From NCBI GenBank assembly GCA_013822585.1, contig PNKG01000004.1, forward strand, positions 1 to 41,770: 41,770 nucleotides of DNA, written 5' to 3'. The first letter of the stretch is position 1, and every line of letters starts with the position of its first letter. The notes below the pieces were generated by a model. It made no database searches, was not told the DNA's origin, and saw nothing but the letters and a program-made list of their open reading frames with translations. Source of the DNA: Opitutus sp. (GTDB lineage Bacteria > Verrucomicrobiota > Verrucomicrobiia > Opitutales > Opitutaceae). The translations under genes and the position numbers were made by a program. Below are positions 6,896 through 40,532 of the stretch, piece after piece.

Positions 6896-6914
6896 TGTAA
6901 CCTATTAGGTTACA
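6896..6914. repeat. 19-bp palindrome TGTAACCTATTAGGTTACA (single copy)
   Basis: Perfect 9-1-9 palindrome between the convergent dsbD-like and GDPD gene ends; extends to AGTGTAACC...GGTTACACT. Confidence 0.95.
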
Positions 6915-6999
6915 CTCTCTCTTGCGGAGTGCTCTGCGAGGGAGGGGCGGGGGGGCTCGGGCCGGGGCGGGGTGGGGCGGAGGGGAAGCGAGGCGGCGC

Positions 7000-7881
7000 T
7001 CAGCGCGCGGCGCGGAGCGCAAGCGCCTTCCAGAGCAGCGGCGGGTGGTTGGTGATGATGCCGTCGACGCCGAGATCGAGGAGCCGCAGCGCGGTGGCGA
7101 CGTCGTCCACCGTGTAGACCCAGACGCGGAGGCCGCGGGCGTGGGCGGCGCGCACAGAATCGGGGCCGAGGTTCGCGTGGTTCCAAACGGCGATCGAGGC
7201 GCCGGCGGCGGCGAGCCGTTCGAGCTGTGCGGGGCCGAGGAGCTTGTCCGGTCCGGTGGGCGGCAAGCCGTCGCCGTGTTCCACCGGGCCGAGCGCGCCG
7301 AGCACCTGTTCGGGCGCGAGGGCGTGGAAGTCGCGGAGGTAGCTCCAATCGTAGCTTTGCACGACGACGCGGTTGAGGAGCCGGCGGCCGCGCAGGAACT
7401 CGACGCAGGTGCGGGCATCGCCGGCCTTGTGTTCGATGAGCGGCAGGGCGGCGGGGGCGATGAGGTCGAGCGCCTCGCCGAGGTCCGGCAAAACGGCGCC
7501 GGCGAAGCGCGCGTCGAACCAGCGGCCGGCGTCGAGCGTGCGCAGCTCGGCGAGGGTGCGGTCGGCCACGCGGTGTCGGGCGCCACCCCAGCGGGTGCGG
7601 GCGTCGGTGGTGCGGTCGGCAGTGGCATCGTGGATGACGACGAGCGCGCCGTCGCGCGTGGGGCGGTAGTCGAGCTCGACGAGGTCGGCGCCGGCGAGCA
7701 GGGCGGCGGAGAAGCTGGGGAGCGTGTTCTCCGGCGCGGCGCCGGAGTAGCCGCGGTGCGCGATGACGAGCGGGCGCGGGGATTTGAGCAGATCGGGTGC
7801 GGACGGCATCGCGGCGGCCACGGGCGCGAGGGCGCCGAGGGCGAAGAGGAGGCCGAGCCGCGAAAGGTGTTCAGGGTGCAT
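7000..7881 (-). CDS. Glycerophosphodiester phosphodiesterase family protein
   Basis: MHPEHLSRLGLLFALGALAPVAAA signal-like N-terminus, then LVIAHRGYSGAAPENTLPSFSAALLAGADLVELDYRPTRDGALVVIHDATADRTTD, the GDPD HRG and ELD motifs. Confidence 0.93.
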   Translation of the reverse strand: MHPEHLSRLGLLFALGALAPVAAAMPSAPDLLKSPRPLVIAHRGYSGAAPENTLPSFSAALLAGADLVELDYRPTRDGALVVIHDATADRTTDARTRWGGARHRVADRTLAELRTLDAGRWFDARFAGAVLPDLGEALDLIAPAALPLIEHKAGDARTCVEFLRGRRLLNRVVVQSYDWSYLRDFHALAPEQVLGALGPVEHGDGLPPTGPDKLLGPAQLERLAAAGASIAVWNHANLGPDSVRAAHARGLRVWVYTVDDVATALRLLDLGVDGIITNHPPLLWKALALRAAR

Positions 7882-7964
7882 CTCGGGGAGGGGCGGCGAG
7901 AACAACGGGGAGCAGGGTGGCGGCGCGGCGGCGGAGTGTTCCGGAGGCTCGGCGGAGATGGGGG

Positions 7965-8059
7965 AAAAACCCGGTCTGCCCATGGCTGCAGAGATCACAG
8001 CCAGGCGACTTGCCCGGATCATGCTCCCCCGTTAGGGCGTGAAACGCGGGCAGACCGGG
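7965..8059 (-). ncRNA. Candidate structured RNA / intrinsic terminator downstream of the TonB receptor
   Basis: Minus strand: CCCGGTCTGCCC (8059-8048) pairs perfectly with GGGCAGACCGGG (7981-7970), followed by TTTTT (7969-7965). The 66-nt loop contains TGGCTG/CAGCCA and CCC-TAAC-GGG hairpins. Confidence 0.5.
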
Positions 8060-8109
8060 AGATGATTCGCCGTGGAAGTCCTCCTTCGTGCGTGCGGGGG
8101 CGATCCGGC

Positions 8110-11100
8110 TCAGAAGGCGACCGTGGCGGTGAGGTTGAAGGCGCGGGGCTGGAGGTAGAGGTAGCTGGTGGGAACGGTGACGCGGTTGGGTTTCGAGATG
8201 TCGCCGTTCGGGGCGCGGAGGCCGGCGCCGATGTAGACGAGGCGGTCCTCGTCGAGCAGGTTGGTGATGGAGAGGGCGAGGTTGAGGGTGCGGCGGTCGC
8301 GGAGTTTGATCTCGTAGCCGAGCGTGCCGGTCATCGTGTAGTAGGTGGGCATGTAGACGCGGGTGGTGGCGTCGACTGCCGGGTCGTCGATGGCGGTGGC
8401 GGGGTTTGCGGGGTTGACGATGGTGTCGGCGCCGCGATTGCCGATGGCCTTGCGACCGATAAATTGCACGCCGGCGCCGACGCGGAGGTTTTTGAGGATG
8501 CCGCTGGGGAAGCGGTAGTCGGTGTAGAGGTTGGCGGTGAAGCGGGGCTGGTCGCTGTAGGTTTTCACGGTGGGGTCGCTGGTGCGCTTGAAGGTCTGGA
8601 TGTCGTTCCAGGCGGTGGCGGCGGCGGAGGCGTCGGGGGAGCGGTTCGCGACGGGAATGGCGGTGTCGACGGTGGCGACGTTGCTGGAGTCGATCAGCAC
8701 GCCGGCATCGAGGACGATCTGGCGGAGGGTGGATTCGTTGGCGTTGAGGTAGGCCCACTGCTGCTGATTGTCGTTCGAGGTGAGGGTCTCGGGGAAGCTC
8801 GCGTTGGCGCTGAGGCGCCAGTTCGGGGTGAGGTTGGCGACGATGTCGATTTCGTAGCCGTTGGCTTCCTGATCGCGGAAGTCGAAGGTGGGGGAGGGGA
8901 CTTCGGGGAGGCCGCGCGTGTTGAGGCCGTTGGGGTCCTGGTTGCCGACGGGGTTGGCGGCGGCGAGGGTGGCGTATTTGCGGGTCTGGCCGGTGTTGTC
9001 GAAGGAGTTGTTGTATTGGACGGAGTAGTATTTGCCGAAGCTGGCGCTGAGGCGGCCGCCGAGGAGGGTGAAGCGCAGGCCGGCGTCCCAGCCTTCGCTC
9101 CTGCCGGGGGGCAGGGCGCTGCCGTTGATGGTGATGCCGGCGCCGGGGGGGTTGAAGGATTCGGCGAAGTTGCCGTAGGCGCTGGCCCAGGGGAGCAGGT
9201 GAAGGACGCCGCCGTAGGTGAGGGTGTCGACGGTGACGTCGATGCCCGGGGAGGAGAAGTCGTCGCGGAAGCGGTCTTGGGCGTATTGGGGGAGCGGGAC
9301 GCCGTTGGCGTCGCGGGGGCGGGTGAGCGCGGGGAGGTTGGCGGTGCCGGTGACGTTGCCGTTGGCGTCGCGGGGGCGGTAGGCGAGGTTCCAGTAGTCG
9401 GCGGGGGCGAGGGGGCGGTAGTAGGCGGTCTGGCCGTTCCAGTTGGCCGGGTAGTCGGCGGCGACGGAGTTGGCGCTGCCGATCATGGTGTAGAGGTTGC
9501 GCTGGAGTTGGTCGCGGCGGGCGCCGGCGATGAGGTTGAGGCGGCCTTTGAGGAGCTTGGCGTTGAGGGCGGCCTGCAGGTAGGAGAAACTGGTGTCGGA
9601 GCGGCGGAAGTTGCCGGGGCTGCGCAGATCGAGGATCTTGGAGACTGGGTAGCTCTGGGTGGTGCCGGCGACGGGGTCGACGTAGCTGATTTGGTCGGGC
9701 ACCGTCATGGGGGAGTTGAGCTGGTTCCAGTAGTAGCGGTAGTTGAAGAAGTCGGCGTTGGCGCGGCGGCGGATGTCCGGGTTGCGGTTCATCACGAAGT
9801 TGTAGCCGAGGACTTGGTTGTCGACGGTGCGGAAGCCGGCGATGAGGTTGGCGCGGAAATCGCCCCAGCGGGTGTTGTTGAAGACGAGGGCGGCGGCGGC
9901 GCGGGCTTCGGTGATCTCGTTCTTGTAGTAGTAGGTGGCGAAGATGGAGTCGCTGTAGACCTGGCCGAAGTTGGGGTTGGTGGCGCCGCTGGGGAGGGTC
10001 TTGTTGATGTCGATGTAGGCGGTGCCCATGCGGGAGGCGACGGCCTCGACCGTCTTGGTGGTGGAGACGCGGGTGCCGGCGACCTCGAGGAAGAGGTGCT
10101 CGCCTTGCTGGTGCTCGAGGAAGGCGGCGATCGAATCGAATTTGTATTCGAGGGTGGGCGCGTTGGGCTGGATGACGGTCCGGCGGGTCGGGCGGCGGAA
10201 AGGCGAACCGGCTTCGGCGAGACGGTAGAGGGCGTCCATGTCGTAGACGTTGCCGAGGAAGGGGCCGCCGTTGATGTTGAGGTTGGCGGTGGAGAGGGCG
10301 AGGACGCCGCCGACCGGCACGGCGGCGTTGGCGCCGCCGCCCTGGGTGCGCCAGGTGTTGGCCCAGTTGATGACGGTGCTGCCATCGGAGCCGGGCACGT
10401 AGAGCGGATAGGGGGAGGTGCTGGAGCCGACGCGGGCGATGCCTTTGGCGTCGGAGTTGGTGATGGTGGCGATGGGGGCGGCGACGGTGGTGGCGCCGTC
10501 CCAGCCGGAGACGCCGTCGCTCATGGTCTCGCGGCCCATGATGGTGCTCTGCTTGTAGGTTTCGTATTCGGCGCGCACGACCGTGCGCTGAAACGGGCGC
10601 CAGGTCGTGGTGAAGTGGACGCCGCGGCGGTTGTCGAATTCGAGATCGCGCCAGGTGTCGGCATCCTGCCAGAGGGTGTTGAGGCGGAAGGCGAGCTGGC
10701 CGTTGAGGGCGTAATTGCCGTCGAGGTTGAAGCGGTATTTGTTCCACGAGCCGATGAGCACGGAGGCTTTGCCGAAGCTCTTGTCGGTGCGGGCTTGCTT
10801 GGTCATGCCGATGACGGTGCCGCCGAGGCCGGAGGTGCCGATGAGGAGGGCGTTGGGGCCGCGGGCGAAGTCGATGCGCTCCTGGCTGTAGGTGTCGGAG
10901 TTCATGCCGAGCTGGAAGAAGTTGCGCTGCTGGCCGCCGGCGATGCGGAGGCCGCGGGACATGACGGAGGAGTTGGCTTCGCCGTCGTTGTAACGGTAGG
11001 AGCTGGTGTCCTGGAGGGGCAGGTAGGAGCCGACGGCCCAAGTCATGGCTTTTTCGGTGTCGAACAGGCTGAGGACATCGAGGAAGTCCCGGGTGATGAC

Positions 11101-11628
11101 CGAGTAGGCGATGGGGGTGTCTTTCAGGTCGGTGGAGAGACGGCCGCCGGCGAGGGAGCTGGAAGCGACAAAACCGTCGTCCTTCTCGGTGACGACGGTG
11201 AAGGGGGAAAGCGTGAGGACGCCGTCGTCGCGGGGGGCGACGGTCGGTTCGGGGGCGCGCGGCGCGGGCGCGGGGTTTTCTTTCGGCGGAGCGGGTGGCG
11301 GCTCGCGGCGGAGGGTGAACGCGCCGGTCTTCACATCCTCGACGGCGGTGAGTCCGGTGCCGGCGAGCAGACGGTTGAGCGCCTCGCGCGCCGTCAGCTC
11401 TCCCTGCACCGCGGCGGTCCGCACGCCGGCCACGGTCTGGGCGGGGAAGACGATCTCGACGCCGCCTTGCTTGGCGGCCTGCTTCAAAGTCGTCGCCGCG
11501 TCGCCGGCGGGGACGTCGAAGTTCTTCCGCCGTTCGTTGGGCGCGGCGAAAGCCTGCGTGACGGCAATAAGCAGGAGAGCGAACGACGCCCAGCGGCGGG
11601 CGGCCGGGAAGCGGGGGATTTTTCTCAT
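8110..11628 (-). CDS. TonB-dependent receptor with N-terminal STN (secretin/TonB) signalling domain
   Basis: Signal peptide, NFDVPAGDAATTLKQAAKQGGVEIVFPAQTVAGVRTAAVQGELTAREALNRLLAGTGLTA (STN), then a plug/beta-barrel with GPNALLIGTSGLGGTVIGMTKQ and C-terminal aromatic strand RAFNLTATVAF. Confidence 0.9.
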   Translation of the reverse strand: MRKIPRFPAARRWASFALLLIAVTQAFAAPNERRKNFDVPAGDAATTLKQAAKQGGVEIVFPAQTVAGVRTAAVQGELTAREALNRLLAGTGLTAVEDVKTGAFTLRREPPPAPPKENPAPAPRAPEPTVAPRDDGVLTLSPFTVVTEKDDGFVASSSLAGGRLSTDLKDTPIAYSVITRDFLDVLSLFDTEKAMTWAVGSYLPLQDTSSYRYNDGEANSSVMSRGLRIAGGQQRNFFQLGMNSDTYSQERIDFARGPNALLIGTSGLGGTVIGMTKQARTDKSFGKASVLIGSWNKYRFNLDGNYALNGQLAFRLNTLWQDADTWRDLEFDNRRGVHFTTTWRPFQRTVVRAEYETYKQSTIMGRETMSDGVSGWDGATTVAAPIATITNSDAKGIARVGSSTSPYPLYVPGSDGSTVINWANTWRTQGGGANAAVPVGGVLALSTANLNINGGPFLGNVYDMDALYRLAEAGSPFRRPTRRTVIQPNAPTLEYKFDSIAAFLEHQQGEHLFLEVAGTRVSTTKTVEAVASRMGTAYIDINKTLPSGATNPNFGQVYSDSIFATYYYKNEITEARAAAALVFNNTRWGDFRANLIAGFRTVDNQVLGYNFVMNRNPDIRRRANADFFNYRYYWNQLNSPMTVPDQISYVDPVAGTTQSYPVSKILDLRSPGNFRRSDTSFSYLQAALNAKLLKGRLNLIAGARRDQLQRNLYTMIGSANSVAADYPANWNGQTAYYRPLAPADYWNLAYRPRDANGNVTGTANLPALTRPRDANGVPLPQYAQDRFRDDFSSPGIDVTVDTLTYGGVLHLLPWASAYGNFAESFNPPGAGITINGSALPPGRSEGWDAGLRFTLLGGRLSASFGKYYSVQYNNSFDNTGQTRKYATLAAANPVGNQDPNGLNTRGLPEVPSPTFDFRDQEANGYEIDIVANLTPNWRLSANASFPETLTSNDNQQQWAYLNANESTLRQIVLDAGVLIDSSNVATVDTAIPVANRSPDASAAATAWNDIQTFKRTSDPTVKTYSDQPRFTANLYTDYRFPSGILKNLRVGAGVQFIGRKAIGNRGADTIVNPANPATAIDDPAVDATTRVYMPTYYTMTGTLGYEIKLRDRRTLNLALSITNLLDEDRLVYIGAGLRAPNGDISKPNRVTVPTSYLYLQPRAFNLTATVAF

Positions 11629-11735
11629 CGGGGTGCGGTGGGTTCGGCTACAAGACGGGCGGGCGGGCAAATCACGCTAAAGCCTGTTGCGCGGCGGGCG
11701 CCGGGGCGGGCTCGTGCCCGCCGCCCGCGGGGGCG

Positions 11736-12749
11736 TCAACGCGCGGCGTGCAGCGCGATGCGATCGCCCGCGCGCTCGGCGCGGATGGCGCCGTTGGCCT
11801 CGAGCAGGCGGACGAATCCTTCGACGTTGTCGGAACGGAAAGTCAGCATGATCGGGAGTGACGCCGGCGCATCGGGCGCCAGCACGAGCTGGGTCGTGTT
11901 GCGGAGGTTGAACTCGGCGACGACTTCGGAGAGCGGCGTGGAGTTGAAGTCGAGCAGGCGCGGCTGCCAGGCGAGGGCGCGCGCGATCTCGGCCGCGGAA
12001 ACGGTCGCGACGGAGGGCGGGGCGGCCGCGGCGTCTGCGAGCGGCACGAGGGCGCGGCGGCCGGCCTCGAGCAACGGCAGCTCGGGCGCGAGCACGCCGG
12101 CGACGGGCGGCGGCGCCACGTGCACCTTGCCCTCGGTGACGAGGACTTCGACGGCGCCGGCGGCGAGGCGGACGTTGAATGCCGTGCCGACCGCGCGCAC
12201 GGCCACGCCTTCGGCGCTGACGATGAACGGGCGCGCGGGATTCTTCGCCACGGTGAAAAACGCCTCGCCGTGGCGCAGCACGACGCGGCGCTCGCCGGCG
12301 GTGTAATGCACCTCGACCTCGGAGCCGCCGCGTAATTCCACCGTCGAGCCGTCTTCGAGCACGCGCTGGCTGTAGCGGGGCGCCGTCGCCAGCGCCGCGG
12401 GCGCAGGCGCGGGTTTTTCCCAGAAGACCGCCACCGCGAACGCCGCGGCGGCGGCGAGCGGCACTCCCCAGCCGAGGGCGACCCGCCAAGGACGGCGCGG
12501 CCGCGGCTTGGCCAGCAGATCGGGGTTGGGTTCCGCGCTATGCTCGGGCCGCCATTGCGCGAGCAAGTTGAACTCCTTCCAAGTGCGCTGGTGCTGGGCC
12601 AAGCGCTCGCCGTGCCGGGGGTCGGCTGCAAGCCAGTGGAAAAACTCGTCCTGTTCGGCCGCGGTCAGACCGCGGTCGCGCCGGACGACCCAGGCGGCGG
12701 CGGCGCGGTCGATGCGCTCGGTTTCGGCGCTTTTCGTCGGATCCGTCAC
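11736..12749 (-). CDS. FecR-like anti-sigma factor
   Basis: HWLAADPRHGERLAQHQRTWKEF N-domain, one TM segment, YSQRVLEDGSTVELRGGSEVEVHYTAGERRVVLRHGEAFFTVAKNPARPFIVSAEGVAVRAVGTAFNVR FecR core. GTG start at 12749 overlaps the sigma factor stop. Confidence 0.9.
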   Translation of the reverse strand: MTDPTKSAETERIDRAAAAWVVRRDRGLTAAEQDEFFHWLAADPRHGERLAQHQRTWKEFNLLAQWRPEHSAEPNPDLLAKPRPRRPWRVALGWGVPLAAAAAFAVAVFWEKPAPAPAALATAPRYSQRVLEDGSTVELRGGSEVEVHYTAGERRVVLRHGEAFFTVAKNPARPFIVSAEGVAVRAVGTAFNVRLAAGAVEVLVTEGKVHVAPPPVAGVLAPELPLLEAGRRALVPLADAAAAPPSVATVSAAEIARALAWQPRLLDFNSTPLSEVVAEFNLRNTTQLVLAPDAPASLPIMLTFRSDNVEGFVRLLEANGAIRAERAGDRIALHAAR

Positions 12750-13282
12750 GGTGAACTCCTTTCGCGCCGGTATTTCGCCATGAACTGCGTGCATTTCTGC
12801 ACCCCGATCGTGAGCTGGGCGGAGACCGTGTGCTCGGAGATGCCGAGCCGCCGGGCGATGTCGGACTGCGACAGGCCGTAGACCTTGCGCAGGGTGAAGA
12901 CCTGGCGGCAGCGGTCGGGCAGGGATTGGATGGCTTCGGTCAAGAGTTCGAGTTCCTGGTTGCGGGCGACGGTCTCGGCGACGTCGTCGGCGTCATACAA
13001 GACGTCCCAGCCCTCGGCATCCACTAAAGGGGCGGAGGGCGCGACGTGCCGGTGGCGGATGCGGTCCAGCGCGAGATTGCGGGCGGTGGCGAAGAGAAAG
13101 GCCTTCGGCGAGTCGAGGCGCCCCCGGGCATGGGCGCGCAGCACGCGGAGGAAAGCCTCCTGCACCACGTCGTCCAGCTCCAGGCCCGAGGGGAAACGGC
13201 TGCGCAGCCACGCGCGGAGCATCGGCTCGTGCGGCAGCACGTGCGCGGCGAACCAGTGCGAATGGGGGGAGTCCTGGGGCAA
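12746..13282 (-). CDS. ECF (FecI-like) RNA polymerase sigma factor
   Basis: LRSRFPSGLELDDVVQEAFLRVLRAHARGRLDSPKAFLFATARNLALDRIRHR (region 2) and QSLPDRCRQVFTLRKVYGLSQSDIARRLGISEHTVSAQLTIGVQKC (region 4). Confidence 0.93.
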   Translation of the reverse strand: MPQDSPHSHWFAAHVLPHEPMLRAWLRSRFPSGLELDDVVQEAFLRVLRAHARGRLDSPKAFLFATARNLALDRIRHRHVAPSAPLVDAEGWDVLYDADDVAETVARNQELELLTEAIQSLPDRCRQVFTLRKVYGLSQSDIARRLGISEHTVSAQLTIGVQKCTQFMAKYRRERSSP

Positions 13283-13395
13283 GGGAGGGAGATCGGGCTG
13301 GCCAACCTTCCTAGACGTTTCACCGGCCCGGAGACACCAAGGAAATCTGCTTCGTTGTTTCCTTGGCGGCGCAAATCCGCCATCGCTGGGGCCCC

Positions 13396-14256
13396 GTGAG
13401 AGACCCCGCGCACACCCAATCCGTCGGCCTGCTGCTGCTCGCCGCGCTCTGCTGGAGCATCGGCGGAGTGCTGATGAAGCTGGTGGACTGGCCGCCGTTC
13501 GCCGTGGGCGGCGGGCGCGGCTTGGTCGCGGCGCTGTTCCTGCTCGCGGTGACGTGGCGCGAGCGGCCGCTGCGCTGGGGCTGGCTGCCGCTGGCCACGG
13601 CGCTGGCCTACACGGGCTGCACGCTGCTCTTCGCCGCGGCGACGAAGCTCACCACCGCCGCCAACGCCATCCTGCTCCAATACACCGCGCCCGCCTACGT
13701 CGCCCTGCTCGGCGCGTGGGTGCTGCGCGAGCACCCGACACGCGCGGACTGGCTGACCATCGCCGCGGTGTTCGCGGGCCTGGGCGTGTTCCTCTACGAC
13801 GGCCTGCGGCTCAACGACGTCGCCGGCATCCTGTTCGCCATCGCCAGCGGCGTGAGCTTCGCCGTCATGATCGTGCTGCTGCGCCTGCAAAAGGACAACG
13901 CGCCGCTCGGGGCGATCATCGTCGGCAATTTCCTCGGGTTTCTCATCGGGCTGCCGTCCATGCTGGCCGCGCCGCTGCCGGACGCGCGCAGCCTCGGCGC
14001 GCTGCTGCTCCTCGGCTGCGTGCAGCTCGGTTTCGCCTACCGGCTCTACACCCGCGCCATCCGGCACGTCACCGCGCTGGAAGGCGTGCTCATCCCCGTG
14101 ATCGAGCCGATCCTCAATCCGATCTGGGTCATGCTCGTCGTCGGCGAAAAACCCACGGCGCTCTCCCTGCTCGGCGGCGGGATCGTGCTCGCGGCGGTCA
14201 CGTGGCGCGCCGTCGCCTCGCTCCGCCGGTCGCCGCCGGAGGTGCGGCCGGGGTGA
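13396..14256 (+). CDS. EamA/DMT-family permease
   Basis: LLLLAALCWSIGGVLMKLVDWPP...; two repeated EamA halves; conserved VIEPILNPIWVMLVVGEKPT. Confidence 0.88.
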   Translation: MRDPAHTQSVGLLLLAALCWSIGGVLMKLVDWPPFAVGGGRGLVAALFLLAVTWRERPLRWGWLPLATALAYTGCTLLFAAATKLTTAANAILLQYTAPAYVALLGAWVLREHPTRADWLTIAAVFAGLGVFLYDGLRLNDVAGILFAIASGVSFAVMIVLLRLQKDNAPLGAIIVGNFLGFLIGLPSMLAAPLPDARSLGALLLLGCVQLGFAYRLYTRAIRHVTALEGVLIPVIEPILNPIWVMLVVGEKPTALSLLGGGIVLAAVTWRAVASLRRSPPEVRPG

Positions 14257-14927
14257 AGGGGGCCGCCGACTCCGACCCGCGCGAAGGCGTGGTGCTGTTG
14301 CACGGCGTGGCGCTCTCGGGCTGGGTGATGCGGCCGCTGGCGCGCGCGCTCGGGCGCGCCGGCTACCGGGTGGTGAACCTCGGTTATCCCTCGCGCACCA
14401 TGCCGGCCGCGCAGATCGCGGACCGGTGGCTGCCGGACGCGCTGCGCGCCCACGCCGTGGCGCGGGCGCCGCGCCTGCACTTCGTGGTCCATTCGCTCGG
14501 CAGCCTCGTCATGCGCCTCCACCTGCGCCGCCGCCGCCCGGCGAACCTCGGACGCGTGGTCATGCTCGGCCCGCCCAACCACGGCAGCGCCGCGGCCGAC
14601 CACGCGAGCCGGAACGGATTTCTGCGGTGGCTGATGGGCGTCAATCTCGGGCCGCTCGGCACGGGCGCCGGCTCGCTCGCCGCGCAGCTCGGCCCGGCGG
14701 ACTTCGAGGTCGGCATCATCGCCGGCACGGGGCGCCTCAATCCGCTGTTCAACGGCGTGTTGGCCGGCCACCGCCACGACGGCGTTGTGACGCTGGAATC
14801 GGCGCGGCTGGAGGGCATGGGCGACTTCCTGGTCGTGCCGCATTCGCACACGGCGATGCTCTGGCGGAGCGGCGTGATCGCGCAGGTGCTGGCCTTCCTG
14901 CGCGACGGCCGGTTCGCGCGGCCGTGA
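14253..14927 (+). CDS. Alpha/beta hydrolase (lipase/esterase-like)
   Basis: VVLLHGVALSGWVMRPLARAL oxyanion region and HFVVHSLGSLVMRL nucleophile elbow. GTG start overlaps the upstream TGA. Confidence 0.8.
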   Translation: MKGAADSDPREGVVLLHGVALSGWVMRPLARALGRAGYRVVNLGYPSRTMPAAQIADRWLPDALRAHAVARAPRLHFVVHSLGSLVMRLHLRRRRPANLGRVVMLGPPNHGSAAADHASRNGFLRWLMGVNLGPLGTGAGSLAAQLGPADFEVGIIAGTGRLNPLFNGVLAGHRHDGVVTLESARLEGMGDFLVVPHSHTAMLWRSGVIAQVLAFLRDGRFARP

Positions 14928-14959
14928 CCCACGGCGCCGCGCCAGTGCCCGGGAGCAGT

Positions 14960-15031
14960 TGTAACCTATTAGGTTACATTGGCATCATCCTTTCTGAGGG
15001 AGCCGGTGGATTTGTAACCTAATGGGTTACA
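14960..15031. repeat. Palindrome pair (14960-14978 and 15013-15031)
   Basis: TGTAACCTATTAGGTTACA and TGTAACCTAATGGGTTACA, 53 bp apart, in opposite centre-base orientation, between convergent genes. Confidence 0.93.
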
Positions 15032-15080
15032 ACTGAAGAACCGGGGCCGCGGCGCGGAACGCGGCTTTCGGCATCGCAGG

Positions 15081-16049: not shown

Positions 16050-16087
16050 GGGCAAAGCAGGGGGCGTAGGCGCGGGCGCGGGCGGCG

Positions 16088-19316: not shown

Positions 19317-19514
19317 GCGCGGCGGCGGCGGGACCGAATGCGGCCTTGCCCCGCGCGCCCGCCGGGGCAGAATGCGCCGCGTTGGCTCGGTTGTTTGTCA
19401 GACTACCCCGCTACGCAGAATCGTCAGGTGAGCGCCGTGGCCGTGTTCGATGATGGTTTGAATCCCGGCAGTCGGGAACGGGCGGACAGGAAGCAGCACC
19501 GGTCGCATACTCCC

Positions 19515-19898
19515 ATGGACAACAGCAAGCTCTACGTCGGGAACATCCCGTTCGCCACCACCGCGCAGGACCTCGAGGCCCTGTTCGGCCAGGCCGGCAC
19601 CGTCAGCGTGGTCGAGATCGTCTTCGACAAATTCACCGGCCGCTCGCGCGGCTTCGCCTTCGTCACCATGGGCAGCCCCGCGGAGGCGCAGAAAGCCGTC
19701 GAGCAGTTCCACGACCACGACATGGGCGGCCGCAAGATCGCGGTGAACATCGCCCGGCCGCGCGAGGAACGCCCGCCCCGCGAGGGCGGCGGCTTCGGCG
19801 GAGGCCGGGGCGGCGGACGCGGCGGCCCGCGGCGCTTCGGCGGCGGCGGATTCCGCGGGGGCGACCGCGGCGGACGCGACTACGGCGACCGCGGATGA
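19515..19898 (+). CDS. RRM-type RNA-binding protein with Gly/Arg-rich tail
   Basis: MDNSKLYVGNIPFATTAQDLEALF (RNP2) ... GRSRGFAFVTM (RNP1) followed by GGGFGGGRGGGRGG tail. Confidence 0.94.
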   Translation: MDNSKLYVGNIPFATTAQDLEALFGQAGTVSVVEIVFDKFTGRSRGFAFVTMGSPAEAQKAVEQFHDHDMGGRKIAVNIARPREERPPREGGGFGGGRGGGRGGPRRFGGGGFRGGDRGGRDYGDRG

Positions 19899-22569: not shown

Positions 22570-22664
22570 CGCCCGCCGCTTGTAACCTATTAGGTTACAC
22601 CAGCACTCGTTTCACACGGCGCGGGACGTGCGCTTGTAACCTAATAGGTTACAAGCGGCGGGCG
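22570..22664. repeat. Palindrome pair (22581-22599 and 22635-22653) embedded in a perfect 30-nt inverted repeat
   Basis: CGCCCGCCGCTTGTAACCTATTAGGTTACA ... TGTAACCTAATAGGTTACAAGCGGCGGGCG, located between the ABC ATPase and permease genes. Confidence 0.95.
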
Positions 22665-29744: not shown

Positions 29745-30251
29745 TGTCACCCAATAGGTGACAGCCCGAACACTCTCCCGAGCGCAAAAAGGGCGTGACG
29801 CCAGTGTCCGTGTCACCTATTAGGTGACAATGAGACCCCACCCACGACTCCAGATGTGGCTGGATATCGGCCGCGCGCTGTTTGCCGCCGGCGAGAGACT
29901 GGTCGATGAGGCCCGGCAAAAGACCAGGCCGCGTCGCTGGCAGTCCTACCACACCGTCCGCCCCGGAGCGGCGACTCCGCTTTGGAACATCCTCGCCGAT
30001 CAGCTTCGCTCCGAACTGGCGGGACACGGCGCCAAGGTCCGCCTCGCACGCTATCTCGGCATCCCGCGCCAGAGGCTCCACAATTTCCTGACCGACACCA
30101 GCCGCATGCCGGATGCCGAACTGACCTTGCGACTTCTCCACTGGCTGGCCGAGAAACGTGCCGGGCGCGATGTCTCATTGTAAGAATGCCGCGTCTTCCG
30201 GGTGAGTCTTCCGCAGTGCGGAGCGCGGATTCTGTCACCTAATAGGTGACA
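29745..30251 (+). mobile_element. 507-bp palindrome-bracketed HTH unit, TGTCACC variant (putative REPIN/MITE-like element)
   Basis: Palindromes at 29745-29763 (TGTCACCCAATAGGTGACA), 29811-29829 (TGTCACCTATTAGGTGACA) and 30233-30251 (TGTCACCTAATAGGTGACA) enclosing an HTH ORF. Mobility is inferred only. Confidence 0.6.
29830..30183 (+). CDS. Small helix-turn-helix (XRE/Cro-like) DNA-binding protein, copy 1
   Basis: 117 aa MRPHPRLQMWLDIGRALFAAGERL...GAKVRLARYLGIPRQRLHNFLTDTSRMPDAELTLRLLHWLAEKRAGRDVSL. About 75% identical by eye to the 40099-40455 product. ATG directly abuts the palindrome end. Confidence 0.85.
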   Translation: MRPHPRLQMWLDIGRALFAAGERLVDEARQKTRPRRWQSYHTVRPGAATPLWNILADQLRSELAGHGAKVRLARYLGIPRQRLHNFLTDTSRMPDAELTLRLLHWLAEKRAGRDVSL

Positions 30252-30269
30252 AATCTCCAGGGTTGCCGG

Positions 30270-31415: not shown

Positions 31416-31595
31416 GGTGGCGCGCGGCGCCCCGACACTCGGCGCACGTTCAACGTCGGGGCGCAAAGCCCCTCCCCCCACGCCGGATGAGGTGAGCGCC
31501 GACGTCCTCGGCGGCGCCGGCGTGCGCGGACTCGGCGCGCTTTGCGGCGCAAAAAGAGTGGCCCGCCCGGAGTTTTTGGCCCTCACTGCGCATCG

Positions 31596-32270: not shown

Positions 32271-32352
32271 CGGTTCAGCCGGGCCGAGCAGCCCAAAGGC
32301 GCGGGCTTGTCTGCGCCGCGGCGCCCTGTATGGTGCCGCGCAGATCGCCGCC

Positions 32353-32904: not shown

Positions 32905-33106
32905 TCGCGGCCGCTCAACCGCGGTTCAGCCTTCGGGTCCGACGGGGGGCGGCGCTCCGCCACTTGAAGCTCCGGGTGCCGGCTGCCGGCTGCTTGACCC
33001 GGGCGGGCGGCGCGGTCGAGACGTTCGCGCGGGGACTGCGGCGGCGCGCCCCGGACCGGACCGGCACAGAAGCCCTGCAGCTTGGCCGAAAACCGGCCCG
33101 CGGAGG

Positions 33107-34411
33107 TCAGTTCCGGCGCTCGACGATCGCGCCGGTCTTGTCCTTGAACACCAGCAGGCGTGTCTCGGTGTTGTAAGACTCGAACGATATGCCCAGCTGC
33201 GGGTTCACCAAGTCGCCCGGGCCGTAGGCCGTGCGCTCGATGAACACGCGCGGATTGGCCCCGCCGCGCACGCCGCTGACCTTCAGGTTTTGCACCCAAG
33301 CCTTGAACGCCGCGCTCGCGGGCGGCGCCGCGACCGGCTGCGGTGCCGGCGGCTCGGGCCTGGCCACTGCGGGGGCGGCTGGCTGGGGGTCGCCTGTTGA
33401 TTTCTCCGCCGCGGGTGGCGGCGTGGACTGGGCCGCTTCTGCAGGCGCGGGCGCAGCGGCTGCAACGACCTCGCGGGTCGGATCGGTGTGGCCCTGCTGG
33501 GTCTTGGCGATCATGTCCTTGGTCCTGCCGACCGGTCCCGTGCCACCGGTGGGGGGTTCGGCCGGCGCGGTTGGTGGCGGCGGAGCCACGGCTTCCGCCT
33601 GGGCGGGTCCGGGCGCGGGTTCGACCGTCTTCTTGGCCACCGGCGCAGCCTTGCGCACCGGCGGCGGCTCGGGCGGCGGGGCGGCGAGGAATTTCATGGC
33701 CGCCAAGCCGCCGCCCGCGAGCACGGCGACCGCAACGGCCGCCAGGAACAGTTTCTTCCGCTTGTCGCCCGCCGCAAGGGGAGCAGGCGCGGGCTCCTGC
33801 CCTTCCGCCACCTGGGGCGGAGGCGGCAGACCGCCGGCTCCGGATGGCGCCACCATCCTGAACCCGGGCGGGGGTGGAAATTTTTTGCCCGGAGGCGGCG
33901 GGAATTTCGGGGCGGCCGGCACCTCCGCCGCGGCCGGGGGCGGGGTTTCCGCGGCGGGTGGAGGCGGCGCGGCAGCGGGTGGCGCGGCGGCGGGTGGAGG
34001 AGCTTCCGGAGGCGGCACGATCGGTCCCGCGGCCGCAGGGACGGGAGCGGCGGACGGATCGCGGGGCTTGAGGGAGAATTTCGCGCGGCCTTCCGCGGGT
34101 TTCGGCGATTCGGCCGGGGCATCCGGCGCCGACGGGGGCGGCATCGGCGGCGCGCTTGGTGCCGGTGCAGGCGGCGGAGACGGCTCGGGTGCCGCGGCGG
34201 GAACCGGGGTCGCCGGCGTCGAATCGCCTCCGCCGATGCGCGGCTTCAGGCGCGGCATGGGCGGAATCGACGATGTGGAAGACGCAGCGGGGGCGGGCGG
34301 GGGCGACGGAGGTTGGGGCGCGGAGTCCGCGGGGGTCGGCGGATTGGTGGCCGGAGACTCGCCTCCGAGCCTGGGCTTGAGGCGGAGCTTCTGGGAGTTC
34401 TCGTCGCTCAT
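33107..34411 (-). CDS. Pro/Ala-rich single-TM protein of unknown function
   Basis: 434-aa ORF, N-terminal low-complexity Pro/Ala region with repeated LKPRIGG-type motifs, TM KKLFLAAVAVAVLAGGGLAAMKFLA, C-terminal domain FKAWVQNLKVSGVRGGANPRVFIERTAYGPGDLVNPQLGISFESYN. Confidence 0.7.
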   Translation of the reverse strand: MSDENSQKLRLKPRLGGESPATNPPTPADSAPQPPSPPPAPAASSTSSIPPMPRLKPRIGGGDSTPATPVPAAAPEPSPPPAPAPSAPPMPPPSAPDAPAESPKPAEGRAKFSLKPRDPSAAPVPAAAGPIVPPPEAPPPAAAPPAAAPPPPAAETPPPAAAEVPAAPKFPPPPGKKFPPPPGFRMVAPSGAGGLPPPPQVAEGQEPAPAPLAAGDKRKKLFLAAVAVAVLAGGGLAAMKFLAAPPPEPPPVRKAAPVAKKTVEPAPGPAQAEAVAPPPPTAPAEPPTGGTGPVGRTKDMIAKTQQGHTDPTREVVAAAAPAPAEAAQSTPPPAAEKSTGDPQPAAPAVARPEPPAPQPVAAPPASAAFKAWVQNLKVSGVRGGANPRVFIERTAYGPGDLVNPQLGISFESYNTETRLLVFKDKTGAIVERRN

Positions 34412-34513
34412 GCGGCCGGAAGGCTGGAGGATTTTGCGGACGGCGGAAACAAAAAGATGCCGTCAACCGGCCAAGCGTGACAATTCGCCGCCCTTGGACA
34501 GAGTGACGCTGCC

Positions 34514-34975
34514 ATGCGCCCCGACCGCACGTTTCGTTCCAAGGTGGATGTGTGGCTGGTCGTTTTGTTGGGCGTGTCCGCCGCCCTGCCCTTGCTGGCC
34601 GCGGGCTGGCTCGTCTGGCGCGGGGAGTTTCGCGGCGTCCTGCTCCTGGGCCTGTGGGGCGCGGTGATGCTGCTGGCCGTCGGGGTGCTCACCGTGCCGC
34701 TGCGCTATGTCTTCCGAGCGGACCGGCTGCACATCCAGAGCGGCTGGCTCGAATGGGATGTCCCCTATGCCGGGCTGCGGAAAGCCGCGCCTTCCCTGAA
34801 CCCGCTCTCGGCCCCGGCGTGGTCGATCCATCGCGTGAAACTCGAGTCGGCCGGCGGCTCCTTCATCCTCGTCTCGCCAGACGACCGGAAATCGTTCATG
34901 GATGAACTCGCCGCCCGCTGCCCGCACCTCGTGCGGACCGCCGACGGCCTTGCCGCCCGCCCTCCTTCCCCATGA
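34514..34975 (+). CDS. PH-domain-containing membrane protein
   Basis: Two N-terminal TM segments, then LTVPLRYVFRADRLHIQSGWLEWDVPYAGLRKAAPSLNPLSAPAWSIHRVKLESAGGSFILVSPDDRKSFMDEL. Confidence 0.75.
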   Translation: MRPDRTFRSKVDVWLVVLLGVSAALPLLAAGWLVWRGEFRGVLLLGLWGAVMLLAVGVLTVPLRYVFRADRLHIQSGWLEWDVPYAGLRKAAPSLNPLSAPAWSIHRVKLESAGGSFILVSPDDRKSFMDELAARCPHLVRTADGLAARPPSP

Positions 34976-35532
34976 AGCGCACGACCGCCAAGCTCGCCGG
35001 CATCACCGCCGCGGCGGTGAAGAAAGCCACCGGCCGCGACTGGGCCGACTGGGTCGAGCTGCTCGACGCCGCGGGGGCGAAGTCCTGGCCCCACCCCGAG
35101 ATCGCGCTCTGGCTGCACAAGAAGCACCAGATCGCCGACTGGTGGTGCCAGATGGTGACCGTCGGCTACGAGCAGGCCGCCGGCCGGCGCGTGAAGCACC
35201 AGAAGACCGACGGCTTCGAGGTCAGCGTGAGCAAGACGATCGCCGCGCCCGTCGCCAACGCCTTCGAGGCGTGGCGCGACGCCGCGCTGCGCGAGCAATG
35301 GCTGCCGCGCACCCCCCTCTCCGTCCGCAAGGCCACCCCGCACAAATCCATCCGCATCCGCTGGCCCGACGACACCAGCGTGTCGGTCAATTTCTGGCCC
35401 AAGGGGCCGCTGAAGTGCCAGGTCGTCCCCCAGCACGGCAAATTGCCGAGCGCCGCCGCCGCGGAGGAGATGAAGGCCTATTGGAACACGCAGCTCGAGG
35501 CGCTCCGCGTGTTTCTCGAGCGCAAGGCCTGA
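34972..35532 (+). CDS. DUF4287/SRPBCC-domain protein
   Basis: GRDWADWVELLDAAGAKSWPHPEIALWLHKKHQIADWWCQMVTVGYEQAAGRR; VSVSKTIAAPVANAFEAWRDAALREQWLP. Confidence 0.85.
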   Translation: MKRTTAKLAGITAAAVKKATGRDWADWVELLDAAGAKSWPHPEIALWLHKKHQIADWWCQMVTVGYEQAAGRRVKHQKTDGFEVSVSKTIAAPVANAFEAWRDAALREQWLPRTPLSVRKATPHKSIRIRWPDDTSVSVNFWPKGPLKCQVVPQHGKLPSAAAAEEMKAYWNTQLEALRVFLERKA

Positions 35533-35597
35533 TCGCCGGCGGTTGCCCCGGGCTCATCTTCTTGCGCCCGCACGGCGCGGCGGCCAAATAGGCGGCG

Positions 35598-36269
35598 ATG
35601 CCCCGCCTGTTCCGCCTCGCGTTGCTGACGCTCGTCCTCCTCCCCGCCCTGCCCGCGCAGGAGGTGCAGCGGCACGGCCTCGTCTTCGAGCGCTGGGTGC
35701 GGGATTCGTTCTTTGGCGGCCACCGGCCGAAGAGCTACACGCAGCGCTGGGACATTCCCGCCGAAGCCAACAAGGACCACGGCGGCGTGCCGGTGAATCC
35801 CAAGGCCGTGAAATACGGCGCGCCGGTCGACCTCGGCGACGCGCTGCGCCAATACGAGATCGACACGCCGTTCATCCTGCTCCTCGGCTTCTGGCGGCAG
35901 GAAGGCGACTTCAAGCGTTTCACCAACCTGCTCGCCCCGCGCGTCACGCCCGAGCAATGGCGCCGGCTCTGGGCGCCCATCACCTACGCCGACTTGCTCA
36001 AGCTCGATGCGATCGTGAAGGATCCCGCCCTCCGCCTCGAGGAGGCGCGGCGGCAAGTCCTGAAAATCAAGAGCGCCCCGCCCTTCACCCAGGCGGTCAT
36101 CCAGGTGAACCCGAAGCTCGATGCCCGGCAGCGCCGCCTGCAGTGCTCGATCCGCTTCGACGACGTCTTCCGGCATCTCGCGCCCGAAGCCGACCCACGG
36201 CCGCAGGCCGCGCCGGCGTTGTGGGGCCGGGAGTTTCCCGGCCCCATCGCCTCGCCCCCGCGCAACTGA
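35598..36269 (+). CDS. Secreted protein of unknown function
   Basis: Signal peptide MPRLFRLALLTLVLLPALPAQ; YTQRWDIPAEANKDHGGVPVNPKAVKYGAPVDLGDALRQYEIDTPFILLLGFW; good codon bias and 223-aa length. Confidence 0.7.
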   Translation: MPRLFRLALLTLVLLPALPAQEVQRHGLVFERWVRDSFFGGHRPKSYTQRWDIPAEANKDHGGVPVNPKAVKYGAPVDLGDALRQYEIDTPFILLLGFWRQEGDFKRFTNLLAPRVTPEQWRRLWAPITYADLLKLDAIVKDPALRLEEARRQVLKIKSAPPFTQAVIQVNPKLDARQRRLQCSIRFDDVFRHLAPEADPRPQAAPALWGREFPGPIASPPRN

Positions 36270-36423
36270 CCGGCACGGGACGATAACTTCTGGTGATTGG
36301 CCGCAGCAGCGGGCTGCAATTCACCACTGCGGACTCGCCCGGCGCGACGCCGGTGTTACACTACCCTTGCGGCGGAGCGCACCGCCCGCCGCCAGTCCGC
36401 AACCCCAACCGAAGGAGGCTCCC

Positions 36424-37164
36424 ATGGCACCGCACACCTACCTCGAACAAGGTCTCTCCGTCCTGCGCGCGCGCCTGCGCACACCGTCCTCCATCCCGGG
36501 CGCACGGCAGGAAATCCGGCCCTTTGTCACGCTCTCGCGCGAGGCCGGCGCCGGCGCGACGACCCTCGGCCGCGAGCTGATCCCGCTGCTCGACCGCGAA
36601 TTCCGCGATCCCGCGCACGCCTGGGTCTTTCTCGACCGCGACCTGCTGACCCAGGCGCTCACGCACCATCAGCTGCCGGCGCGCCTCGCCGAATACTTGC
36701 CGGAGGACCGCGTCTCGGAAATCCGCGCCGCCATCGGCGAACTCGTCGGCCTGCATCCCTCGCTCTGGCAGCTCGGGCAGAAAGTCAGCGAGGCCATCCT
36801 CCAACTCGCGCATGTCGGCCACGTCGTCTTCTCCGGCCGCGCGGCCCATCTCGTCACGCGCGCCCTGCCCGGCGGCCTGCACGTCCGGCTCGTCGCCCCG
36901 CGCGACGTCCGCATCGCCCGGACCGCGACGGCATTGAAGCTGAGCCGCGAGAAAGCCGAGGCGCACATCGACCGACAGGACGAGGCCCGCCGGCGCTTCG
37001 TCCGGTCGAACTTCGACCAGGACATCGAGGATCCGCACAGCTACGATCTGGTGATCAACACGGACCGCGTCTCCGCCGCCAGCGCCGCGCGGCTCGTGGT
37101 CGCCGCGCTGCGCGAGCGCATGGCGCAGGCCCAACCCGCCCCGGCCCCGCTCGTCACCGCCTGA
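36424..37164 (+). CDS. Cytidylate kinase-like family protein
   Basis: FVTLSREAGAGATTLGRELIPLLDREF P-loop-like; WVFLDRDLLTQAL; VVFSGRAAHLVTRALPGGLHVRLVAPRDVRIARTATALKLSREKAEAHIDRQDEARRRFVRSNFDQDIEDPHSYDLVINTDR. Confidence 0.87.
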   Translation: MAPHTYLEQGLSVLRARLRTPSSIPGARQEIRPFVTLSREAGAGATTLGRELIPLLDREFRDPAHAWVFLDRDLLTQALTHHQLPARLAEYLPEDRVSEIRAAIGELVGLHPSLWQLGQKVSEAILQLAHVGHVVFSGRAAHLVTRALPGGLHVRLVAPRDVRIARTATALKLSREKAEAHIDRQDEARRRFVRSNFDQDIEDPHSYDLVINTDRVSAASAARLVVAALRERMAQAQPAPAPLVTA

Positions 37165-37240
37165 TCCCATCGGCATTCCGGGGCTCCCCCGCGCGCCGTC
37201 GGTTGACTCGCGCGGGCCGCCCCCGCAGCGTCGCGGGCGC

Positions 37241-38533
37241 ATGACGAACCCCGCGTCGCCCCCGCCACTCGTGCGCGCCCTCGGCCGCTGGACGATGGTC
37301 GCCCTCGTCATCAACGCCGTGCTCGGCTCCGCCATCTTCGGCCTGCCGGGCAGCATCGTGAAGCTCGTCGGCGCCGCCGCGCCGCTCGCCTACCTGCTCT
37401 CCGCGGCGGCGATGCTCGTGTTCATCGCGGTGTTCGCCGAGCTCAGCTCGCAGTTCAGCGAGCCCGGCGGCCCCTACCTCTACGCGCGCGAGGCCTTCGG
37501 GCGCTTCTGGGGCATCGAGATGGGCTGGTTCATCTGGCTCGTGCGCCTCACCGCCGCCGCGGCCAACGCCAACCTCTTCGTCATCTACCTCGGCGAATTC
37601 TGGCCCGCCGCCACGTCGCCGCTCCCGCGCGCGCTCGTGCTCGCCGCGCTGCTCGGCGGGCTGATGCTCGTCAACTACCGCGGCGTCTCCGGCGCGGCGC
37701 GGCTCTCCAACGTCTTCACCGCCGCCAAACTCCTGCCGCTCGCGCTGCTCGCCGTCGCCGGCTTCGCGCTCACGCCGTCGGCGCCCGTCGCACCCGTGCC
37801 CGAGCCGGCCGGGACGAAATGGCTGGGCGCCTTCCTCATCCTGCTCTTCACCTACGGCGGCTTCGAGACGGCGCTCATCCCCGCCGGCGAATGCCGCGAC
37901 GCCCGCCGCGACCTGCCCTTCGCCCTCGGTGTCGGCCTCGCCGTCATCACCGCCATCTACGTGCTGCTGCAGATCGTGGCCATGCGCGCCGTGCCGAACC
38001 TCGCCGACAGCGCGCGTCCGCTGGCCGACGCCGCGCGGGCGCTCATCGGACCGCCCGGCGCGGCATTCATCGCCCTCGGCGCGATGATCTCCACCTCCGG
38101 CTACCTCAGCGCGCAGCTCCTCGCCGTGCCGCGACTCACGATGGCCCTCGCCCAACGCGGCGACTTCCCCGCGCCGCTCGGCGCCGTGCATCCGGTCCAC
38201 CGCACGCCGCACCTCTCCATCCTCGCGTGGGGCGCGCTCGCCTGCGGTCTCGCGCTCTACGGCAGCTTCACGTGGAACGTCGCGCTCTACGGCGCCGCGC
38301 GCCTGCTCACCTACGGCCTCTCCTGCGCCGCGCTGCTCAAGCTCCGCCGCGCGCGCCCCGACGCCCCCGCGCTGCGCATCCCGGCCGGCAATGCCCTCGC
38401 CGTCCTCGGCCTCGTGCTCTGCCTGCTCATGGCGCAGGCGATGGAGCTCAGCCACCTGTGGGCCATCGCCCTCGTGGCGGCGGTGGCGGCGACCAACTGG
38501 TTTTTCGTCCGCCGCCCCGGGCCGGGCCGCTGA
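37241..38533 (+). CDS. APC-family amino acid permease
   Basis: VINAVLGSAIFGLPGSIVKLVGAAAPLAYLLSAAAMLVFIAVFAELSSQFSEPGGPYLYAREAFGRFWG. Confidence 0.93.
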   Translation: MTNPASPPPLVRALGRWTMVALVINAVLGSAIFGLPGSIVKLVGAAAPLAYLLSAAAMLVFIAVFAELSSQFSEPGGPYLYAREAFGRFWGIEMGWFIWLVRLTAAAANANLFVIYLGEFWPAATSPLPRALVLAALLGGLMLVNYRGVSGAARLSNVFTAAKLLPLALLAVAGFALTPSAPVAPVPEPAGTKWLGAFLILLFTYGGFETALIPAGECRDARRDLPFALGVGLAVITAIYVLLQIVAMRAVPNLADSARPLADAARALIGPPGAAFIALGAMISTSGYLSAQLLAVPRLTMALAQRGDFPAPLGAVHPVHRTPHLSILAWGALACGLALYGSFTWNVALYGAARLLTYGLSCAALLKLRRARPDAPALRIPAGNALAVLGLVLCLLMAQAMELSHLWAIALVAAVAATNWFFVRRPGPGR

Positions 38534-38592
38534 CACCGCGCACAACCGGTGCGCATGTTTCGCCAAGATAATCAGGTCAGGAACCGGTTGCT

Positions 38593-39957
38593 TTGGTTTT
38601 AATAGGGTGGCACCATCTGCGTGGCCGCCCCGTGCTCGACACTCCGCTCATCGACGCCTACCTGCTGAAGCTCTTCCGCTTCCGCACCCGCGCTTTCCTG
38701 CACATGGAGGACGCCCCGGGCACGGTGCCGCCGCTGCCGCGCGGAAGCCCCGGCTACCTCTACGTCCACATTCCCTTCTGCGAAGTGCTGTGCCCGTTCT
38801 GTTCCTTCCACCGCGTGCAGCACCGGCACTCGCAGGCCGAGCGCTATTTCACCGCCTTGCGCCGGGAGATACGTCTCTACCATGCCGCGGGATTCAGGTT
38901 CACCGGTGTCTACTTCGGCGGCGGCACGCCGACCGTCGAGCCGCAGGACCTCGTGATGACGATCAACCTCGTGCGCGAGCTCTTCGGCGTGACGGAAATC
39001 TCGGTCGAGACCAACCCCAAGGACCTGCGCCCCGACGTGCTCGGGCCGCTGCGCGAGACCGGGGTCACGCGGCTCTCGGTGGGCGTGCAGAGCTTCGACG
39101 ACCGGCTGCTGCGCGAGATGGACCGCTACGAGAAATACGGCAGCGGCGCCGAGACGACCGGGCGCATCCGCGCCGTGGCCGGGATGTTCCCCACGTTGAA
39201 CGTCGACCTCATCTTCAACCAGCCGCACCAGACCCTCGCCTCGCTCGAGCGCGACATCGCGATCTTCCGCGGCCTCGGCGCAAACCAGGTGTCGTTCTAC
39301 CCGCTGATGACCTCGCCGACGGTCGAGCGCCGCATGGTCGGCGCGATGGGCCTGCCCGACCAGCGCCGGCTGCGCCAGTTCTACCACACCATCGTGCAGC
39401 GGCTCGGCCGCGAGTTCCGGCCCTCGTCGGCGTGGTGCTTCACCAAGCGCGGCCAGGGCATCGACGAATACATCGTCGCGGCCGACAACTACGTCGGCGT
39501 GGGCAGCGGGGCCTTCAGCTATCTCGACGGCACGCTCTACTCCACGACGTTCTCGCTCGCCGGCTACGAGCAGCGCATTGCCCAGGGCCTGACCGGCATC
39601 ACGACCTGCCACCACCTGAGCGACACCGACCGCATGCGCTACAGCCTCCTCGTGCGGATGTTCGGCCTGCACATGGACGAAGCCGCGGTCCGCGCGCAGC
39701 ACGGCGCGAAATTCTTCCGCAAGCTCTGGGGCGAGCTGCTCACCCTGCGCGTGCTCGGCGCCGCGCGGCGCGACGAACGCGGCTGGCACCTCAACGAGCG
39801 CGGCATGTATTGGCTGATGCTGATGATGTCGGCGTTCTTCGAGTCGGTGAACAACTACCGCGACGCCATGCGCGCCCATGTGAATCAGGAATTGCACGAG
39901 CCGACGACGATGTGCCCCCCGATCGGAGGCACGCTCAGCCCCGCGCCGGCGAAGTGA
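38593..39957 (+). CDS. Radical SAM protein, coproporphyrinogen III oxidase (HemN/HemW)-like family
   Basis: YLYVHIPFCEVLCPFCSFHR (CX3CX2C), FTGVYFGGGTPTVEPQDL, ISVETNPKDLRPDVLGPLRETGVTRLSVGVQSFDDRLLREMDR. Start may be GTG at 38632. Confidence 0.9.
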   Translation: MVLIGWHHLRGRPVLDTPLIDAYLLKLFRFRTRAFLHMEDAPGTVPPLPRGSPGYLYVHIPFCEVLCPFCSFHRVQHRHSQAERYFTALRREIRLYHAAGFRFTGVYFGGGTPTVEPQDLVMTINLVRELFGVTEISVETNPKDLRPDVLGPLRETGVTRLSVGVQSFDDRLLREMDRYEKYGSGAETTGRIRAVAGMFPTLNVDLIFNQPHQTLASLERDIAIFRGLGANQVSFYPLMTSPTVERRMVGAMGLPDQRRLRQFYHTIVQRLGREFRPSSAWCFTKRGQGIDEYIVAADNYVGVGSGAFSYLDGTLYSTTFSLAGYEQRIAQGLTGITTCHHLSDTDRMRYSLLVRMFGLHMDEAAVRAQHGAKFFRKLWGELLTLRVLGAARRDERGWHLNERGMYWLMLMMSAFFESVNNYRDAMRAHVNQELHEPTTMCPPIGGTLSPAPAK

Positions 39958-40032
39958 CCGCACCTCCCGCGCCGCATTGTCCGAGAACTTCAGCCGGCCC
40001 CATCCCGCCGACCCACGCCCCCCCGAGACAGT

Positions 40033-40532
40033 TGTAACCTATTAGGTTACACTTTCAGAATTTCCCTGTCCGATGATTTTTGACTGTAACCTAATAGGTT
40101 ACATCGACAGATCGCGCCCGGCGCGCTTTTCGGCCAGCCAATGCAGCATCCGCAGCGTCAGCTCCGCATCCGGCATGCGGCTGCGCCCGGTGAGAAAATC
40201 GTTCAGGCGCTGGCGCGGCACGCCAAGATGGCGGGCCAATCTCACCTTCGCGCCGTAACCACTCAACTCCGTGCGGAGTTGCGCCTGCAGGATGTTCCAG
40301 AACGGTGTGGCCGCGCCGGGGCGGACGGTCGCATACGACTGCCATCGCTTCGTGCGCAGGTTCTTTCTCGCCTCCTCGGCGAGTCTCTCGCCCGCCGCAA
40401 ACAGGGCGCCGCCGATATCCGCCCAGACAGCCAGTCGTGGATGCAGGTCTTTCATGATATGTAACCCATTAGGTTACATATTCTGTGAACACGAGGGAGA
40501 AAGAGATGGGATTTGTAACCTAATAGGTTACA
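40033..40532 (-). mobile_element. 500-bp palindrome-bracketed HTH unit, TGTAACC variant (putative REPIN/MITE-like element)
   Basis: Palindromes at 40033-40051, 40085-40103, 40460-40478 and 40514-40532: one pair on each side of the HTH ORF. Mobility is inferred only. Confidence 0.6.
40099..40455 (-). CDS. Small helix-turn-helix (XRE/Cro-like) DNA-binding protein, copy 2
   Basis: 118 aa MKDLHPRLAVWADIGGALFAAGERLAEEARKN...GAKVRLARHLGVPRQRLNDFLTGRSRMPDAELTLRMLHWLAEKRAGRDLSM. Stop codon lies inside a palindrome. Confidence 0.85.
   Translation of the reverse strand: MKDLHPRLAVWADIGGALFAAGERLAEEARKNLRTKRWQSYATVRPGAATPFWNILQAQLRTELSGYGAKVRLARHLGVPRQRLNDFLTGRSRMPDAELTLRMLHWLAEKRAGRDLSM

Follow-up and report, generated by a model that had tools for sequence, protein, structure and literature searches.

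In REP/REPIN systems with a RAYT gene (REPtrons), dispersed palindromes occur singly or in pairs with diverse spacers, a dedicated gene is flanked by them, and several classes are present per genome (PMC3733652, PMC8049555). The palindromes described here, from an Opitutus genome, resemble REPtrons in being short and dispersed, in forming pairs with diverse spacers, in flanking a dedicated gene, and in having intragenic copies, including one in uvrA. In contrast to REPtrons, the dedicated protein is a predicted Cro-like helix-turn-helix (HTH) protein without a catalytic motif and not a Y1 HUH transposase; the palindromes are odd, with a TA-N-TA core and no GTAG tag, they are present in a genome without a Y1 gene (G029), and their class follows the residues of the HTH protein. 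Palindromic insertions of about 150 bp lying in frame within genes are known as Rickettsia palindromic elements (RPEs; PMC10969869). In-frame palindromic insertions are likewise found here, in uvrA, fmt, an epimerase gene and others, although the palindromes are smaller. For RPEs, we are aware of neither a dedicated DNA-binding protein nor a change of class at orthologous positions. The HTH fold, the recognition-helix specificity and a palindromic operator (predicted) at the gene's own start are reminiscent of XRE/Cro autorepressors (YdaS-like, HigA-like), but here the predicted operator also lies at the 3′ end of the gene and is dispersed tens of times off promoters. Tens of high-fidelity sites for one protein are known from parS/ParB-Noc and matS/MatP; these differ from the present system, which has many classes, a patchy distribution and sites that are insertions into genes. 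No description of this palindrome-HTH pairing was found among open-licence papers, and the bracketing and co-evolution reported below point to a type of repeated element that has not been reported before. We would class the system as REP-like in its working and not as a member of REPIN-RAYT, since the defining features of the latter, a linked Y1 transposase and the GTAG tag, are missing here.

The window analysed is the whole 41,770-nucleotide (42-kb) stretch of contig PNKG01000004.1 of Opitutus sp. All 12 palindrome copies reported by the initial annotation were found at their coordinates, against 0.01 expected by dinucleotide shuffles, which bears out its view that they are not due to chance. 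The consensus is TGT(A/C)ACCTANTAGGT(T/G)ACA with AAG/AAT flanks, and two sub-types were distinguished, A (TGTAACC; TGTAACCTANTAGGTTACA) and C (TGTCACC; TGTCACCTANTAGGTGACA). The copies are mainly paired, with centre-to-centre distances of 52-54 or 66-67 bp. The palindromes, for which no strand is assigned, and the two HTH genes are as follows.

6896..6914: single A-type palindrome, in the convergent gap where a dsbD-like gene (end 6883) faces a GDPD phosphodiesterase gene
14960..15031: A-type pair (14960-14978 and 15013-15031), centre distance 53 bp, in a convergent gap
22581..22653: A-type pair, centre distance 54 bp, flanked by ABC ATPase and ABC-2 permease genes
29745..29829: C-type pair (29745-29763 and 29811-29829), centre distance 66 bp, directly upstream of an HTH gene
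29830..30183, + strand: C-class HTH gene, 117 aa, His in the recognition helix (PRQRLHNFL), flanked by aminotransferase and dus genes
30233..30251: C-type palindrome, downstream of the C-class HTH gene
40033..40103: A-type pair (40033-40051 and 40085-40103), centre distance 52 bp, at the 3′ end of the A-class HTH gene
40099..40455, − strand: A-class HTH gene, 118 aa, Asn in the recognition helix (PRQRLNDFL)
40460..40532: A-type pair (40460-40478 and 40514-40532), centre distance 54 bp, 4 bp upstream of the A-class HTH start codon

Nine of the 12 copies match TGTNACCTANTAGGTNACA exactly, and those at 15013, 29745 and 40460 carry a single change, in the T/A pair beside the centre (CCCA or TGGG). 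The bracketing of two HTH genes proved real: C-type copies lie on either side of 29830-30183, and A-type pairs on either side of 40099-40455, the stop codon of the latter gene being inside a palindrome of the 40033..40103 pair. That no copy lies inside a gene is correct for the window but not genome-wide, where 8 of 48 copies, at 6 places, lie in frame within ORFs, as do many in congeners. The spacer of the 29745..29829 pair contains a CTCCCGAG motif, the 22581..22653 pair has an outer inverted repeat of 11 bp and could form a long hairpin, and the boundary holding the 14960..15031 pair is also occupied in congeners G007 and G001. The window also encodes a 1172-aa STN-domain protein (8110-13222, − strand), probably a TonB receptor, whose gene shows strong GC skew and precedes FecR-like and ECF sigma factor genes. 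A small RNA-recognition-motif (RRM) protein is encoded at 19338-19898 (+ strand).

Genome-wide counts were obtained by pattern searches. The source genome, G000 (2.55 Mb, 73% complete), contains 48 copies, whereas the reversed-pattern control gave none in the same search, which answers the question of genome-wide frequency that the initial annotation had raised. Allowing up to 3 mismatches lifted the count only to 52, of which 41 were exact, at least 9 had one mismatch and at most 2 were others; there is therefore almost no decayed tail. The variation tolerated in G000 is nearly always a T/C change at half-site base −2. Within the one genus, copy numbers range from 0 to about 50 per genome. 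Arm self-complementarity extends at most 2-3 bp past the 19 bp in Opitutus-genus sites (consensus AAG/AAT), long extended arms being found mainly at brackets in other genera. Two single A-type sites, around position 4001 of L020 and L038, have a common longer flanking repeat (GGCAAG arms and further bases outside them), which may reflect recent copying.

The two window HTH proteins are 76% identical over their aligned part, and proteins of the family are about 118 aa in size. The AF2 model of the 40099-40455 protein (pLDDT 87.7) consists of a long N-terminal helix (6-33) and a Cro-like helix bundle (51-63, 69-77, 81-89 and 97-111). Its PDB matches are mostly XRE/Cro repressors (CylR2, P22 c2, SinR-type) but partial, covering about 55 residues with TMt 0.57-0.63 and weak E-values, near 1 or above. 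No curated family matched above its cut-off; Pfam YdaS/HTH_3 fell below it, which sets the protein apart from YdaS- and HigA-like proteins, and PHROGs matches were marginal. Nor does a toxin partner gene adjoin either window HTH gene, each being bracketed singly by palindromes; their neighbours are dus, aminotransferase, PUCC-type transporter and radical SAM genes. Both genes have atypical codon usage, one scoring just above and the other below the threshold of the gene caller. A profile built from 28 homologues found members in 18 searched genomes, all Opitutaceae by their titles and including Opitutus, Lacunisphaera, Rariglobus and Candidatus Didemnitutus MAGs, and none in 20 genomes from other families of the order. 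Every match scored at least 117 bits except one 23-bit stretch. A phage or plasmid origin was considered and is unsupported, there being no relatives in viral contigs, plasmids or phages at the thresholds used.

Other HTH homologues are bracketed by palindromes with other half-sites (TGTAACGTA, TGTCACGTA, TGTCAACTA, TGCCGTA, CTCCGTA, TTGCGTA, TGGCGTA, GTTCGTA and more), each palindrome being laid out as a half-site, one base and the reverse complement, and 14 half-site types were seen. At 33 of the 34 bracketed HTH loci the same class is present on both sides (permuted mean 4.4, maximum 12). The bracketing classes are also dispersed in the host genome: there are 37 dispersed CACGTA-type copies in G015 and 34 in G018, 31 of CGTA-type in G006, and 31 of TCATNTA-type in G010 (one mismatch allowed), including the two copies on either side of an HTH gene there. 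Genomes rich in a class usually encode the cognate HTH protein. Three populations were found without a detected cognate, namely 18 CACGTA-class copies in the complete genome G032, 18 in G034 and 10 TCATNTA-class copies in G004, which shows that such populations can persist, at least in the short term, without strictly requiring the protein. In G004, an HTH-less congener, a 10-copy TGTCATATAATAGATGACA family with unequal arms, 7 copies being identical, is spread over contigs C5, C9, C12, C20, C22 and C27; the idea that HTH-less congeners hold only decayed sites is wrong, as this class is near-identical.

Residues within and after the recognition helix covary with the half-site bases. At base −3, C occurs with Arg 28:2 and other bases 0:24, and at base −6, A occurs with Asn/Gln 15:4 and C with His/Asp 19:1, with the qualification that contingency-table p-values overstate independence because the HTH sequences are related by descent. 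A at base −4 is confined to the sites of proteins that have lost the final Arg of PRQR. On the protein tree, each of the 5 changes in the residue that determines base −3 lies on a branch with a base change (0.33 expected), a count that rests on few changes. The window pair fits this code, the 40099 protein having Asn and A-type sites and the 29830 protein His and C-type sites. The location of 29830-30183, which is ancestral, is the same as that of A-type, Gln-bearing homologues in G006 and G007; given these shared neighbours, protein and brackets seem to have changed class jointly. Judged from sequence, the palindrome and the HTH protein change together in evolution, and from this covariation we infer that the palindromes are operators.

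The initial annotation had proposed an operator regulon as one possibility. Its operator part is favoured by the covariation, and a classical regulon, with HTH proteins as transcription factors and sites as promoter operators of target genes, would also agree with the Cro/XRE fold, the dimer-sized palindromic sites, their presence beside the start of the HTH gene itself, and the set spacing of pairs, which suits cooperative binding. The regulon part does not fit where the sites lie. With a codon-usage gene caller, 88 places in four congeners were sorted into 25 in convergent gaps, 36 between tandem genes, 3 in divergent gaps and 24 within ORFs. Divergent gaps hold 3 of 64 intergenic places but make up 26% of gap bases (p=2e-5), whereas convergent gaps and 3′ ends are enriched. 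The palindromes inside ORFs, in uvrA, fmt, the epimerase gene and others, add extra codons and are read in the only frame that is open through them, most often as C(N/H)L(L/I)G(Y/D), except for two copies at extreme 3′ ends. The scarcity of divergent places, the 25 convergent ones and the 24 of 88 inside genes disfavour a regulon, for which the scarcity of degenerate sites would also be unusual, and we regard it as unlikely.

Many intergenic places are common to congeners. In those sharing positions, which have diverged by 10-30% in protein sequence, spacers have diverged and palindromes are intact: over 12 orthologous comparisons, identity is 97% in palindromes against 82% in flanks and 72% in spacers, so it is the palindromes and not whole elements that are kept. 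This constraint, with a few dozen paired, high-fidelity sites per genome that avoid promoters, could be expected of chromosome-organising sites, bridged or marked by the proteins as in matS-MatP, parS-ParB and Noc and kept perfect by nucleoid selection. Such a role is nevertheless improbable: several classes coexist per genome, sites are inserted into gene loops, and the system is missing from about half of the family genomes searched and varies from none to some 50 copies within one genus. The annotation had suggested an active or recently active dispersed repeat; dispersal is confirmed, but the common positions speak partly against recent activity. Conservation of positions is only partial, however, and copies are far more numerous than the 12 of the window. 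Gain or loss is evident at uvrA, where G007 and G000 carry a 75-bp element that is cleanly missing from G001, G006, G002, G008 and G009. Evidently, palindromes inside ORFs are insertions, as element-free orthologues such as those of uvrA demonstrate.

In G004, the same position of uvrA (L306) holds a GTAG-like REP pair (GTAGGGCGGGGTCGCC...GGCGATCCCGCCCTAC) exactly where G007 and G000 have HTH palindromes, and GTAG REPs interrupt uvrA in Opitutus terrae (PMC3733652). The uvrA position is thus an insertion hot spot common to unrelated palindrome families. Together with the anatomy of single or inverted-pair palindromes, diverse spacers, and gene-flanking and intragenic copies, these observations would suit palindromes that are REPs or REPINs moved by a Y1 (RAYT) transposase, with the HTH gene as passenger. 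We consider this improbable as well. The GTAG tag is absent from the palindrome consensus and flanks, class tracks HTH residues, and 8 Y1 genes each are present in G004 and G003, which have no A/C-type population. Conversely, G029 (97% complete) has 17 sites and the HTH protein without any match to the Y1 transposase family (PF01797); a Y1 transposase is therefore not needed and was rejected as the driver.

At one position in fmt, the palindromes are A-type in G007 and G000 and C-type in G001, and other or degraded palindromes are found there in G006, G008, G010 and G004. The flanks are alignable despite the difference in class, G007 and G001 agreeing at 111 of 120 bases. What look like class switches in place may instead be independent insertions into the same hot spots. 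Decay within a pair was seen in L171 (about 3430-3500), where a degraded C-type palindrome and spacer lie next to an intact A-type site.

The explanation that we favour, and hold to be probable, is that the palindromes are operators of HTH homodimers, dispersed as REP-like units and kept and rewritten alongside the cognate protein. Homodimers of small Cro/XRE-fold HTH proteins are predicted to bind the palindromes as operators of about 19 bp, and an HTH gene between its own palindromes at start and stop would probably repress itself. The same class would be dispersed as units of one to three palindromes, often in pairs about 45, 54 or 66 bp apart with a weakly conserved spacer, and inserted at tolerated positions (3′ ends, convergent gaps, protein loops), the sites not being mainly promoter operators. 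While the cognate protein is present it would keep the palindromes near-perfect as spacers and flanks drift, and when its specificity shifts, resident sites could be rewritten in place to the new class. A stronger version, in which a transposase-less, repressor-like HTH protein maintains dispersed palindromes and rewrites them on specificity change, is speculative and rather doubtful; such protein-driven concerted evolution might proceed by biased repair, conversion or re-insertion at old sites.

Dispersed palindromes associated with transposases are known; here the partner, which has so far turned up in Opitutaceae alone, has the features of a DNA-binding protein and nothing more. The 14 natural half-site classes form a ready data set for HTH recognition rules, a testable natural DNA-recognition code, and the system catches a regulator and dozens of its putative sites changing specificity jointly, which is normally hard to observe. 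In-frame insertions at one codon across many species, as in uvrA and fmt, make turnover directly traceable.

The spacings of 59 unique palindrome pairs cluster at 44-46, 52-55 and 65-69, and their spacers have diverged. A weak CTCCCGAGTGARAACG spacer motif is present in 9 pairs against 0.24 expected, a descriptive figure since the motif was derived from the same pairs. The pairs fold into strong long hairpins (-39 to -74 kcal/mol) and may have a role in RNA or single strands. Such hairpins, and the enrichment at 3′ ends and in convergent gaps, would be expected of transcription terminators or mRNA 3′-end hairpins with only a secondary link to the HTH protein. This is very improbable: the window copies are not followed by a T-run, translation runs through the copies inside genes, conservation applies to the 19-bp sequence and not just to its pairing, and class covaries with HTH residues. 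In the orthologous pairs L167/L033 and L172/L133, both central bases are flipped (A..T versus T..A), as would be expected if the stretch from one palindrome to the other had been inverted.
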